Assembly (NCBI GenBank): GCA_016931495.1
Contig: JAFGER010000106.1
Coordinates: 1-43,835 of the forward strand
Direction: 5' to 3'
DNA: 43,835 bases
DNA from: Chlorobiaceae bacterium
GTDB lineage: Bacteria; Bacteroidota; Chlorobiia; Chlorobiales; Chlorobiaceae
Shown here: piece after piece, positions 18,642-26,255 of the stretch
Layout of the letters: each line of letters opens with the position of its first letter
Numbering within the stretch: position 1 is the first letter of the stretch
The notes under the pieces: generated by a model
The model's input: only the letters and a program-made list of their open reading frames with translations
Database searches by the model: none
Told to the model about the DNA's origin: nothing
Made by a program: the position numbers and the translations under genes

Positions 18642-20849
18642 CTACGTTTCCGGTTTATTCGACTTTTGGGGATGAATTCGCTTCCAGGCTCTGAAAAACG
18701 AAAATGCCACATAAAACCGGACAAAAGTATAAGTCAGCATAAAAAAGAATGCGATTCGTCCAGCCTTCAGCAAGACAGGACTCTTTTCTTGATGATCTGA
18801 AAAAATATTGAGAAATAATATTCCGGCATCAGAAATCATAAAGAAATACGCACTTATAACAAGGCAAACGAATGAAATGATGAGGAGTTGAATAAAGTAT
18901 TTCAATGGCTCGTTATGAGTCAGAGAGGTTTCGCTCATTTCCTGACGCTGAAATGCTATGCGCTTATGCACGTCATAGGTTGTATTTGACCCCAGGCTTT
19001 CAACGATCAGGATTCTTCTCCACTCGATTGCAGCACTGACCAGGCGGCTGAAGATGCCTCTGACCAGCCTGATTTTGTTCCATTTGTCCGCAATCCACGC
19101 AAACCATGAGTCGTCTATTTTTCTGCTACTAACCAGCTCTTTCTTGTAGGCGGAAAGTGCGTTCGGCTGGACCCAGAGAAGCACTGAGGCGATAATATAG
19201 ATCCATCTCCATAATAACGATCCGTTCATCATACCATAACTGAATAGCGCCGTGGTTACCAGGACGGTTAAAAACGGAATCAGATAATAAGCCCACCGTT
19301 TTGCTGATTTGAAAGCCAATTTCTTTTCGTGAATATCTTTCCAGACAAATCTGTTATTGTCGTCAGCTTTTTTTGTGTCGATAATATTGTCGATAATTCC
19401 AAAAAACAGTTGCTGATCGGTCCAGTACATATTGTGAGCAAAGCCGGGAACGCCATAACGCCTGAACACCACATCATGATTTCCTGGCGGCTCGGCTTGA
19501 AAAACAGTCTTGTATAAAGGGGTTTTCATCGCCTCTTCCAGATGGTGTCCAACAGGATCCTGTTCGTCGCAGAAGTTATAATGATTGATTCTGCCTTTAA
19601 TAAATAAGCAATCCTCTTCTTTTATGTTAGTAGTGCAATTGTCGTTGAGATGGTTATAGTTGTCAGGCCAGAGCGCGAGAAATTTGTCGACAGGAGATCC
19701 TATGGTGATAAAATTGGTCACATGGTTCTTCCAGGAAATATAAGGAATGTCTGGAGCGGAGAAGTCGTTATTTTCTACTGTCTGATTGTTTTGCTGATGA
19801 GCTCTTGTGCTGAACAGTTTGTCTGCGTCTGGCACCAGTTGCCTGATGACGTCAAGGATTTGAGTATTATTTTTTTCGGCTGTCCATATTTCATAAAGTT
19901 TTCGATACAAGTGATTCCAGTTTTTTGTTTCATTGTCATTGACAACGTTACAGTAGCCGGGAAATGGCAGGCTCGTTGGCCACGCTTTGCTTGTATCTTC
20001 GGTTTTCCTGATTTCATCTTTTGCATGAGCATACACAAGAGCATCAAAGCTCATGATGCTGCCAAGGCTGTGCGCTATGATGGTGAATTCAGGTGGCTGG
20101 TATGGCTGCGCCGGATTCTGGAGATAAACACGATGATACCATTTCGTAAAATCCCGTATCATGATTTCATCCAGCACAACATGAAAATGCCTGACCGCGC
20201 GACCTCTGGTTCTTCGATAATCGCCATAAAGATGAACATCGCCGAGGAAGCCGTCAAAAACAAGCCTGGTCAATCCGGCATATTTGAATGCCAGCATCTT
20301 TTTGATGGGAATCGCCGTGTTGACGATGGATTCGAGCATGGGGAGCGCCCAAACAGGCATCGGGTTAACAGTTTCTGGACGAGATTTTTGGAGGCACGCT
20401 TCCTTCTGTTTTCTGAGCCTGAGCTTTTCAAGCAGGGCGCTTGACCACTCTTCAGTTGAGGAGCCGAAATTTTCAATATCGCTTCTGAGGATGAATTGCC
20501 ATTCAATATCGACGAATCTGAAATTTTTGCCTTCGGGGTCAGTGCAGATCGAGCCGTTAAATTCTTTGTCAGCACACTCTTTCAATACAGGAATCCCCTC
20601 GAACTCGGCCCAGCCGCGACCGATTCCTGCGTAGCGGACGGTTTGCTCGGACAAATTGGCTGGAATAATGAAACCGTAATCCGGTGAATCGGATGCTTTC
20701 CAGTCGGCAGTTCTTTGGCGAGCTTCTGCGAAACGCTCCACGACAGCCGGCGCTGTTACATTGGTTTTCTGCTCTCCCATACCGTGAACCACGACGATAT
20801 AGTGCCGCCTTTTCTGATGAGACGAAGGATTCCGGTGCTGGTTATCCAC
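18642..20849 (-). CDS. Large membrane protein with serine-hydrolase (lipase-like) N-terminal domain
   Basis: This 735-residue protein has an alpha/beta-hydrolase-like N-terminal half: oxyanion-type VHGMGEQ at 21-27 and nucleophile-elbow-like AHSLGS with Ser261. The C-terminal third has about four hydrophobic segments, two in the stretch YYLIPFLTVLVTTALFSYGM to WIYIIASVLLWV and two near the end (LLIISFVCLVISAYFFMI, IAFFFMLTYTFV). The start is GTG 20849, preceded by AAGGAGGT five bases away; ATG 20870 lacks such a site. Base composition is AT-richer than its neighbours, suggesting transfer. No partner genes are visible. Substrate unknown; a lipase/esterase or signalling role is only inference. 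Confidence 0.75.
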   Translation of the reverse strand: MDNQHRNPSSHQKRRHYIVVVHGMGEQKTNVTAPAVVERFAEARQRTADWKASDSPDYGFIIPANLSEQTVRYAGIGRGWAEFEGIPVLKECADKEFNGSICTDPEGKNFRFVDIEWQFILRSDIENFGSSTEEWSSALLEKLRLRKQKEACLQKSRPETVNPMPVWALPMLESIVNTAIPIKKMLAFKYAGLTRLVFDGFLGDVHLYGDYRRTRGRAVRHFHVVLDEIMIRDFTKWYHRVYLQNPAQPYQPPEFTIIAHSLGSIMSFDALVYAHAKDEIRKTEDTSKAWPTSLPFPGYCNVVNDNETKNWNHLYRKLYEIWTAEKNNTQILDVIRQLVPDADKLFSTRAHQQNNQTVENNDFSAPDIPYISWKNHVTNFITIGSPVDKFLALWPDNYNHLNDNCTTNIKEEDCLFIKGRINHYNFCDEQDPVGHHLEEAMKTPLYKTVFQAEPPGNHDVVFRRYGVPGFAHNMYWTDQQLFFGIIDNIIDTKKADDNNRFVWKDIHEKKLAFKSAKRWAYYLIPFLTVLVTTALFSYGMMNGSLLWRWIYIIASVLLWVQPNALSAYKKELVSSRKIDDSWFAWIADKWNKIRLVRGIFSRLVSAAIEWRRILIVESLGSNTTYDVHKRIAFQRQEMSETSLTHNEPLKYFIQLLIISFVCLVISAYFFMISDAGILFLNIFSDHQEKSPVLLKAGRIAFFFMLTYTFVRFYVAFSFFRAWKRIHPQKSNKPET

Positions 20850-20853
20850 GGGT

Positions 20854-20861
20854 ACCTCCTT
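20854..20861 (-). promoter_or_regulatory. Strong Shine-Dalgarno that fixes a GTG start
   Basis: AAGGAGGT on the minus strand lies 4-5 bases before GTG 20849. The nearby in-frame ATG 20870 lies upstream of this site, so the GTG is the better start for the large membrane hydrolase-like gene. Confidence 0.75.
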
Positions 20862-21076
20862 TTTTTTCATTGAATGAACAGAGGACGCGAAAGGGACTTT
20901 TTTAAAAAGTAATGCTTTTTTCCGCGTGGATAAAGCGGTATTGATCGTGCGGAATTACGGAGGTTCTGTCAGGAAGAACAGCTCTGGGCAGGCGATGCTC
21001 AGCAAGAGACGTCAGAAAGTGGAAGTTTCAAGCTGTGGCAATGAAAACACGATCTTCCAATGATGGATGCCGTGGT

Positions 21077-22985: not shown

Positions 22986-23849
22986 TTACACTGAAGTGTT
23001 GCGACGTCGTTGTAGCCAGAAATAGCCAGAAGTTATCAGCAAATACCAGAAATGGCTTGGTTCAGGCATCGGCATCAACCCCGATGATGAAAGAGATGCT
23101 GCTGTCAACGATTGTCCTCTGGCTGACAGGACGTTGTTGATATCGTTGTAATAGGTAGGGACGAATGTATCCACAGAGATCGAGGTTCGGTTACTCAGCC
23201 AGTGAATACCGATCAAGGCCAAGCCCGAGCTGGAAACCGCAAAGCTTGGCGCACCCGAGTCACCAGTCTGCAAAACGGTTTCATCGCCTCCTACAGAAAA
23301 TTTGTCATTGTTGTCGTAATCATACCAAGCCGTCATAGCCGAATTATACAACTTTACTGACTCCGTCACATTACGTCCAACACGGTGTGTTTTTCCATAA
23401 TTGTAAAGTTCCAGACCGACATAACTGCTTGTGTTTGGCAGTGTCAGAACAGAGTAACGTTCGATTGATTCATCGACAGTTAGCCCTGCATCAAACCATC
23501 CAACCCAAAGGTCAGTACTTCCGATTCGTTTTCCACCCGTCACTTTGTAACTAAAGCTTGAATCCGCAAGATTGTCGGTTGACCAGAACGTTATTGTCTC
23601 ACCAACAGCTGGATGGTAGTGATTGGCTGAAATGAAGTAGTTATCGCTCACCAGTGTTGCCCAATGGCCAGAGCTGCCGAGTCCGACGCCTGAAAAATCG
23701 TATGAGTCACCAACGAAGTCTTTGTCGCTACCGGTGTAAAACCGGTAGTGCTCAGCTGCTGAGTAGGAGCGTACTGTCATAACTCCATAACTTGTCGCTG
23801 GACTCAAGAACATCAATGCAATCAAGAGTGATGGCAGAAATCTTTTCAT
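22986..23849 (-). CDS. Secreted trypsin-like serine protease with PEP-CTERM sorting signal
   Basis: This 287-residue exported protein begins with a signal peptide (MKRFLPSLLIALMFLSPATS). Its core resembles a chymotrypsin/trypsin fold: His77 in ISANHYHP where TAAHC is usual, Asp113 in STDLWVGW, and Ser198 in QTGDSGAPSF. The C-terminus has the PEP-CTERM pattern: Pro-Glu-Pro at 262-264, a hydrophobic run HFWYLLITSGYFWL, then RRR. Such signals are cut by exosortase during export to the cell surface or polysaccharide matrix. The start is ATG 23849; the frame is open to TTG 23879. It is AT-richer than neighbours and isolated. No exosortase gene is in the window. Confidence 0.8.
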   Translation of the reverse strand: MKRFLPSLLIALMFLSPATSYGVMTVRSYSAAEHYRFYTGSDKDFVGDSYDFSGVGLGSSGHWATLVSDNYFISANHYHPAVGETITFWSTDNLADSSFSYKVTGGKRIGSTDLWVGWFDAGLTVDESIERYSVLTLPNTSSYVGLELYNYGKTHRVGRNVTESVKLYNSAMTAWYDYDNNDKFSVGGDETVLQTGDSGAPSFAVSSSGLALIGIHWLSNRTSISVDTFVPTYYNDINNVLSARGQSLTAASLSSSGLMPMPEPSHFWYLLITSGYFWLQRRRNTSV

Positions 23850-24180
23850 GATAGCTATCGATTTGTTAAAGACGGTCAAGGTTTCGTCTTTTGGTTGTGA
23901 AAAGTGTTAATGATGTACAATGTTTTTGTTGGCTTATGAGCCGTTCCTGATGCTCGACCTGTGCGGGCGGGGTATGGCAGGCCAAGCAGTACTGATGTGG
24001 CTTCCGTGGAGTGGGCATACCCTCACCCGAATACCTGTTGGTTCGGGTGAACAACCCTGGAGGCCTTCGACTGTAAATACGACGAGTATATGCTGTGATG
24101 ATGAGGTGGTATGGCTTGATCATTCCAGCGTACCATAGAATTCATTACTGACAGCAAGATATACTAAGAGTAGAATAACA

Positions 24181-24203
24181 ATATTTATTCGAATAATAAA
24201 TAT
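24181..24203. repeat. AT-rich palindrome
   Basis: ATATTTATT, 5-base spacer, AATAATAAATAT-side arm AATAAATAT form a perfect 9-bp dyad, with an inner 12-bp palindrome TTATTCGAATAA. It lies in the gene-poor stretch; role unknown. Confidence 0.55.
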
Positions 24204-24825
24204 AAATTTAGACTTAAATTTTTCACTATATATATGAACTTGACGCCAGATGCGTCAGTACTTAAAAGGCGCAGCGGATAGTTGCTGCCTGTGAAGTGTT
24301 TATCTGAGTGATGTAATTCGAGCGTTAGGGGTGGTTTTCAGGTTGGCTGTGGATGATGAGCTTGAGAGCGTGGATGCGGATCAGTATCTCGTTTTGATTA
24401 TGCGAACATTTTTTACCCTGTTATGACAACATGAAGGGTACCTTGAAAAAAGTATTGCGCGTTCCGATCGATGCACTGGATAGTGCTTGAAATCCTCACC
24501 TGCTCCATGGAGGCTCCGGTTTCCGCACTCCATCAGCCTTGCACTCGGGTTGCTTATCACACTATTTTATATGCGTCCTGAATTTTGCGTTTCAGCGCCG
24601 GTGTATGACTCTGAAGATGTGGCTTGCTTTGTTGCCAATGTTGTGGTAAGTGGGGTAGGGAAACGCGCAGGAGCTTGCAATAAGAGGGGGCTTGACCGGA
24701 ATTTGAGGCTTTCCGGTTTTTCGATAGTTCAGTTCTGGATGATTCGTAGCTGAATCATCTGCAATTGGAATGCGCTGCTCGTGTACCGCTCGCCATCCCT
24801 TTAACTCTGAAGTTGACCGTCGGGT

Positions 24826-24880
24826 GCTGTCAAAATAAAATGACTGGGGGGAGGTTGCGTGGCCAACTCCCCTTGACAGC
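24826..24880. repeat. Nested inverted repeat, possible structured RNA
   Basis: Outer arms GCTGTCAA (24826-24833) and TTGACAGC (24873-24880) are perfect complements. Inside, GGGGAG pairs with CTCCCC and continues with TTG/CAA after a one-base bulge. A transcript would fold as a two-part stem. No gene overlaps it convincingly. Confidence 0.5.
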
Positions 24881-24943
24881 TTCAGGTTCGAGATACAATA
24901 ACCCTGAACACTGCGTTCTCAACTATTCTTTTCATAGCACTTG

Positions 24944-24985
24944 GTTAGGCCCTGTACCTGTCGGCAGATGGGTGCAGGGCCTAAC
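24944..24985 (+). terminator. Strong hairpin followed by TATTTT
   Basis: GTTAGGCCCTGTACC pairs over 15 bp with GGTGCAGGGCCTAAC (one U-G pair) around a 12-base loop, then TATTTTGCT follows. It has the form of an intrinsic terminator, which implies a transcript arriving from the left in a stretch with no recognised gene. Confidence 0.6.
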
Positions 24986-25299
24986 TATTTTGCTGGTCAC
25001 GCTGTATCTACAGCGCTCCTGATTGAGGCTGAGAGTCCGGCAGCATGATTTACTGGCCCGTCCTGAATTATGTACTCTGGGCGTTCCTGGTAACTGAAAT
25101 TTATTGACAGCGAGAATAGTAAATCTCTGTATGGCTGAAGAGATTATTTGAATTATCTCATATTAAATTATACATTAATTATGTGTTTGAGTGCTTGAGG
25201 TTTACTTGCAGAATAGGTTTTGCTTGATGAATGGCTAAGCGCAATATATATGAAGCTGATTAGTGTGCAAATGCAGTAATAGTGTGAAAAAGCGAAAAA

Positions 25300-25440
25300 A
25301 TGCAACAGATCATTACATCTTTAATCAGAGAGGCGTCGTCTTTGCCCCCTACAGAACTGGCAATTGCGGTGTCGGCAGCGGGAGTTTTACTGGTGTCGCT
25401 GGCAGTAAAATTTCTTGACAAGAACGCAGGTATTTATTAA
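25300..25440 (+). CDS. Possible 46-residue single-helix membrane protein
   Basis: An uninterrupted frame from ATG 25300 to TAA 25440 encodes 46 residues. Residues 1-17 are polar with a short amphipathic start, 18-38 form one clear hydrophobic helix (LAIAVSAAGVLLVSLAVKFL), and the tail is DKNAGIY. The protein-like profile, higher local GC than the flanks and isolation in a gene-poor stretch argue it may be real. Against it, no good Shine-Dalgarno is visible (only AGCGAAAAA upstream). I do not recognise it; small single-helix subunits of membrane complexes have this form. Confidence 0.45.
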   Translation: MQQIITSLIREASSLPPTELAIAVSAAGVLLVSLAVKFLDKNAGIY

Positions 25441-25652
25441 ATCGTTACTCTATATTTTGCGTCATTTTGCTTGGCGTAATTATTGGGGGTTTAATAATTT
25501 GATTAACCTGTTGTTTCAAGTTTAGCTGCTAAGTTATTTCAATAAGTGCGCCTATCCAGTTTGTTCAGGGCTGATAGGTTCATGAATTGCTTCAGTCTTC
25601 CTTGTTTTTTGCCGACCACCCGTTTCGAGTTCAAGCTACCCGCCCTCCCATT

Positions 25653-25679
25653 ATAAGCTCATGAAAAAAATGAGCTTAT
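25653..25679. repeat. 10-bp stem hairpin at the broken end of the IS remnant
   Basis: ATAAGCTCAT and ATGAGCTTAT form a perfect stem around loop GAAAAAA, exactly where recognisable transposase orfB sequence stops. It could be a product of the event that truncated the element. Confidence 0.6.
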
Positions 25680-25903
25680 GGCCAAAGCCTATCTTTTGTA
25701 CGTGTGCGGTAAACCCTGTAGTAAGGCCGCAACGGATACTTCTCGTCGATCAGCCGCATGAGTTCGCAATTCAGCTTCGAGGTTTTCTTTGGCTGGTAAT
25801 ACAGGCCTGAACGGTGAATTGAAAGCAGCTCGCACTGCCGCTGCATACTGATACCGGAATGTTTTTTCTCAACTATAGAGCGTCGTTTTGACAGGGATTT
25901 CAC
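25676..25903 (-). pseudogene. IS3-family transposase orfB, truncated
   Basis: A 75-codon remnant carries the N-terminal part of an IS3-type OrfB: RSIVEKKHSGISMQRQCELL, then IHRSGLYYQPK and LMRLIDEKYPLRPYYRVYR, the helix-turn-helix-like leader before the integrase core. Similarity is lost after that and a stop follows. The DDE catalytic domain, about 200 residues, is missing, so it cannot encode a working transposase. Confidence 0.8.
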
Positions 25904-25909
25904 GACTGC

Positions 25910-26189
25910 AATTTTTTTTGAGATAGTCGACCTCGACCTTCAGCTAGCCTATGGTTTTGTAAAGCGCTTCGTTCTCTTGCTGGTAATCCTGCTCGGTTTT
26001 TCGGGCCTTTTCGCCTTTCGAGAAGACCTCTGAAGCCTTGTCGAGGAACTCCCGTTTCCATTGGGCGATCCGGGTTGGATGAAGCTCATGCTTTTGGGCG
26101 AGTTCCGTCACCGATAGCCTTTCGCTGAGGGCTTCGAGGATAACTTTTGTTTTGAATTCAGGCGTGAATTTGCGACGTGTTTGTTTCAT
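25910..26189 (-). pseudogene. IS3-family transposase orfA with nonsense codon
   Basis: This encodes the DNA-binding OrfA of an IS3-family element: MKQTRRKFTPEFKTKVILEA and helix-turn-helix VTELAQKHELHPTRIAQWKREFL, then a leucine-zipper-like tail. The frame stops at TAG 25944-25946 after ENEALYKTIG, but reading on gives LKVEVDYLKKN, the expected continuation, so CAG probably mutated to TAG. The A8 slippery run lies in that continuation at 25912-25919. Confidence 0.8.
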
Positions 26190-26255
26190 GGTGACTGCTG
26201 GGTTTTTTGGTTATTCCAATGTAACCAGCTGTCCTAATTTTGGGGAGTATTTCAC

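Follow-up and report, generated by a model that had tools for sequence, protein, structure and literature searches.

A predicted chymotrypsin-fold serine protease with a PEP-CTERM tail, and its tail-less sister, in Chlorobaculum

The closest described counterpart of the locus reported here is the PEP-CTERM/exosortase (EpsH) system, whose substrates combine a signal peptide with a C-terminal tail made of a Pro-Glu-Pro (PEP) motif, a hydrophobic stretch and a basic cluster (Haft et al., 2006; PMC1569441). In 2006, enzyme homologues were rare but existing among PEP-CTERM proteins, and C. tepidum was found to lack EpsH despite encoding two PEP-CTERM proteins (PMC1569441). Trypsin homologues (PF00089) with GlyGly-CTERM tags, sorted by rhombosortase, are also known (Haft and Varghese, 2011; PMC3237569). 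The Chlorobaculum protease that we describe resembles the PEP-CTERM/EpsH system in its signal peptide and tail and in the location of the exosortase of its relatives, which lies with EpsI at an exopolysaccharide cluster, but the cargo is a hydrolase and its tail falls below the HMM cut-off. It shares with the GlyGly-CTERM trypsin homologues the secreted chymotrypsin-fold protease and the tripartite C-terminal sorting tag, yet differs in tag, sorting enzyme and phylum, and lacks a PF00089 match. Such precedents make a surface-sorted protease less unusual than the initial annotation had claimed. The architecture of an enzyme with a C-terminal sorting tag is, indeed, known, while the family and the pairing of tailed and tail-less forms appear to be unreported: a literature search of incomplete coverage returned no work on the protease family, none on green sulfur bacterial exosortases and no paper combining PEP-CTERM with Chlorobaculum. 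We propose, with a probability of roughly 0.7, that the protein is an active chymotrypsin-fold serine endopeptidase, exported by its signal peptide and either retained at or targeted to the cell surface or exopolysaccharide layer via an exosortase-processed PEP-CTERM tail.

The gene lies in a stretch of 43,835 nucleotides (the window, analyzed at its full length) from the draft genome of a green sulfur bacterium of the genus Chlorobaculum (2.25 Mb, 106 contigs, 92.65% complete). Its features are listed in Table 1, and its start codon is backed by homologues that align at M1. As the initial annotation had it, a single 287-residue protein carries the signal peptide, the putative catalytic residues H77, D113 and S198 in chymotrypsin order and the PEP, hydrophobic and Arg tail. 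The gene lies at different locations in different species and a search for conserved neighbors identified no constant partner. Beside the gene, a low-GC stretch (42-46%; positions 24100-26190) holds no convincing gene and ends in an apparent IS3-type transposase OrfA without OrfB (25944-26189), so that it may be a decayed insertion adjoining the protease gene. Elsewhere in the window (18642-20870), a stretch of lower GC encodes a protein of 742 residues that contains hydrophobic stretches and an HSLG motif reminiscent of lipases, and for which no significant Pfam family was found.

Table 1. Coordinates of the tailed protease gene and its predicted features in the window.
Feature	Position	Strand	Basis
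Tailed protease gene (287 aa + stop; ATG at 23849, stop at 22986)	22986..23849	-	ORF call; homologue alignment at M1
Signal peptide, ~residues 1-22 (MKRFLPSLLIALMFLSPATSYG)	23784..23849	-	Sequence; hydrophobic maximum at residues 4-18; exact cleavage site inferred
Chymotrypsin-fold protease domain, ~residues 50-245	23115..23702	-	AF2 model, Foldseek PDB, profile match to elastase
Putative catalytic His77 (ISANHY; chymotrypsin position 57)	23619..23621	-	Invariant; on elastase TAAH
Putative catalytic Asp113 (STDLWVG; chymotrypsin position 102)	23511..23513	-	Invariant; on D of elastase GYDIALLRL
Putative catalytic Ser198 (GDSGAPSF; chymotrypsin position 195)	23256..23258	-	Invariant; on GDSGGP of elastase
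His216 of GIHW (chymotrypsin position 213), probable S1 determinant of a Glu/Gln preference at P1	23202..23204	-	Invariant in homologue alignment; on elastase position 213 and GVH of norovirus NS6 protease
Pro-Glu-Pro motif, residues 262-264	23058..23066	-	Sequence; position kept in tailed homologues
Hydrophobic helix of tail, residues 265-280	23010..23057	-	AF2 model helix 266-285; hydropathy
Arg cluster R281-R283	23001..23009	-	Sequence

Structure prediction, which the initial annotation had proposed as a check on the triad, returned a chymotrypsin-like model. The AF2 model, built from 14 sequences, averages a pLDDT of 81.5 and reaches about 90 or more over most of the core, and its 50 best Foldseek matches in the PDB are all chymotrypsin-fold proteases (probability 1.00, E from 1.9e-8), the majority of them thrombin, trypsin, chymotrypsin, factor Xa and elastase. 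The protein thus has the double beta-barrel fold of clan PA by both AF2 and Foldseek. A profile built from the family hits porcine elastase (E=0.0017), its His, Asp and Ser columns falling on H57, D102 and S195, and the three residues never vary among 22 members from three phyla (18 Chlorobaculum homologues and four relatives from outside), which is consistent with the His-Asp-Ser order of clan PA at homologous positions. Profile searches placed the protein in no established family: neither it nor ten aligned family members matched PF00089 or PF13365 at the curated cut-off, and no Pfam peptidase family attained its cut-off for the tailed protease. Membership in Peptidase S6 (PF02395, autotransporter-type) was considered and rejected; one homologue matched over the His-motif region (E=0.0019), below the curated cut-off, and there is no autotransporter barrel.

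The description of the protein as trypsin-like in the initial annotation holds for the fold but not for the specificity. The residue six positions before Ser198 is Val rather than Asp, leaving no equivalent of Asp189, and a trypsin-type preference for Arg or Lys is therefore unlikely. The H216 of the GIHW motif is, on the other hand, invariant and aligns with elastase position 213 and with the GVH of the norovirus NS6 protease, placing a His in the S1 pocket as in the S1B proteases. V8-type glutamyl endopeptidases, like 3C-like proteases, recognize Glu or Gln through a His at position 213, so the invariant His216 predicts a preference for Glu or Gln at P1, to which, judging from sequence and analogy, we give about even odds. 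The likeness to V8-type glutamyl endopeptidases (MEROPS S1B) extends to the xSGxP...GIHW arrangement and a weak profile match to V8 protease (E=0.23), but the similarity in sequence is below significance and the V8-type enzymes have no PEP-CTERM. The Chlorobaculum protease also has Leu five residues before the Ser, where V8 protease has Thr.

With its N-terminal signal peptide and a PEP motif, hydrophobic helix and basic cluster at the C-terminus, the protein has the anatomy of a PEP-CTERM protein. A test for the tail anatomy was passed by only 23 of 200,000 shuffles of the protein's own last 45 residues and by one of the 224 open frames of at least 80 aa in the window, the tailed protease itself. 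The tail is found at the same position in all ten tailed Chlorobaculum members and in the relatives from outside, across three phyla. It is weakly hydrophobic (best 15-residue mean of 0.75), and the 287-residue protein scored below the cut-offs of PF07589 and TIGR02595; weak matches to these profiles and NF038129 were found among some family members.

The 18 homologues come from nine of 86 Chlorobiaceae genomes, all nine of them Chlorobaculum, and no other genus carried the family in 394 sampled Bacteroidota genomes. Outside the Bacteroidota, four MAGs carry relatives, a verrucomicrobial one from the Akkermansiaceae (54% identity) and three planctomycete ones from the Pirellulales (33-38%); three of these proteins have the typical hydrophobic stretch and basic residues at the C-terminus, and the contig of the fourth stops just past the PEP. 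This distribution, together with a gene GC of 47% against 57% for the window, suggests that the protease gene was acquired laterally. In one of the Pirellulales relatives (L053:2449-3591), the protease domain and the PEP-CTERM tail are separated by what seems to be a region of dockerin-type repeats.

Five genomes (G001, G005, G013, G017 and G020) carry a tailed and a tail-less copy in tandem on the same strand; in the genome under study the two copies are on different contigs. C. thiosulfatiphilum DSM 249 is among the carriers of a tandem pair (L044). On the tree, the tail-less copies group in a single clade within the tailed ones (branch support 99/97). Because the tail-less copies are a single nested clade and the outside relatives are tailed, we take the tail to be ancestral and lost once, and a duplication followed by a single loss of the tail would be the simplest history of the Chlorobaculum pair. 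The dN/dS is about 0.2 in tailed and in tail-less forms, indicating purifying selection on both and, therefore, the maintenance of the same protease in tagged and untagged versions. Hence, one enzyme is probably produced in two forms, anchored and free. PEP remnants were searched for 3' of the tail-less genes, and only the copy of the genome under study (L096:8581-10724, contig C50) has one, an in-frame MPEPNLC right after the stop; it is possibly a remnant of the lost tail but may be due to chance. Divergently oriented beside this paralogue is a gene for another Trypsin_2 protein (PF13365, 4e-7), which also gave weak NAL1-like matches.

The draft encodes four further PEP-CTERM proteins, which the initial annotation had suggested looking for, but neither an exosortase (PF09721 profile; protein of a close relative as query) nor an EpsI (PF11984) was found in it. 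The species could thus have lost the exosortase system, with C. tepidum as a precedent (PMC1569441), and the tail would then serve as a C-terminal membrane anchor only; the four PEP-CTERM matches of the draft, versus 10-12 in three exosortase-bearing relatives, also point in this direction. We regard such a loss as unlikely, given what surrounds the locus elsewhere in the genus. Four protease-bearing relatives have an adjoining exosortase and EpsI (PF09721, 1e-32; DUF3485, 7e-19), at the end of an exopolysaccharide cluster in all three whose surroundings were read, and in two relatives the locus is some 1-18 kb from alaS and adjoins kor (and accC-accB). The universal gene alaS is missing altogether from the draft and so is the accC-accB-kor block, save for short weak matches. 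The missing exosortase is thus most plausibly due to an assembly gap and is unusable as a refutation of sorting. Furthermore, those Chlorobaculum genomes that consist of a single contig and lack exosortase carry no copy of the protease and two PEP-CTERM matches at most; matches number 4-21 in eight of the nine family-bearing genomes of the genus and no more than two in the other 12. Four Chlorobaculum MAGs (G008, G009, G013 and G017) have 15-21 PEP-CTERM matches each and yielded no exosortase or EpsI. G013 is also without alaS, making an assembly gap likely there, and the contigs adjoining alaS in G008 and G009 contain no exosortase. If the missing exosortase and EpsI were real in all five drafts (4-21 PEP-CTERM matches), an enzyme not yet recognized would process the tags, including that of the protease, a scenario that we consider highly improbable.

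Two further rival readings concern the catalytic activity and the sorting role of the tail. The protein could be a pseudo-enzyme, a chymotrypsin-fold surface protein that binds instead of cutting, as might be suspected from the missing Pfam trypsin match, from a homologue (G005a) with YY in place of the usual xG before DSG, and from a His motif, ISANHY, that departs from the usual TAAHC and had led the initial annotation to question activity. The residue after the His varies among members (Y, L, F, R, A) and the His never does, so the motif is no argument against activity; the invariance of all three triad residues in three phyla while adjacent positions vary, and the low dN/dS, render a non-catalytic protein improbable. 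The tailed protease is, judging from sequence and model, probably an active enzyme. The hydrophobic C-terminus could also be accidental and have no sorting role, which would agree with its scores below the PF07589 and TIGR02595 cut-offs, but we give this idea hardly any credence considering how seldom shuffled sequences pass the anatomy test, the presence of the same tail in all tailed homologues and its co-occurrence with other PEP-CTERM proteins.

We infer catalysis, specificity, exosortase processing, final location and substrate for the preferred reading, a surface-sorted protease, as follows. The signal peptide would direct Sec export and the tail helix would retain the protein in the inner membrane, where an exosortase, encoded in relatives with EpsI at the end of the exopolysaccharide cluster, would cleave near the PEP and hand the enzyme on. 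The His77-Asp113-Ser198 triad would then cut extracellular proteins, probably after Glu or Gln owing to the His at S1 position 213. Duplication of the gene, often in tandem, and the single loss of one copy's tail would have added a free secreted form to the anchored one.

Most PEP-CTERM cargo proteins have no known function and few of them are enzymes; the Chlorobaculum cargo has a predictable activity that can be assayed. The tail-less sister gene, adjacent in several species, allows one to ask how a PEP-CTERM tail affects the location and use of an enzyme. The exosortase loci of Chlorobaculum also give context to C. tepidum, the only exception noted in the founding paper, with PEP-CTERM proteins and no EpsH: because other species of the genus have the exosortase/exopolysaccharide locus, it may have been lost in the C. 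tepidum lineage.
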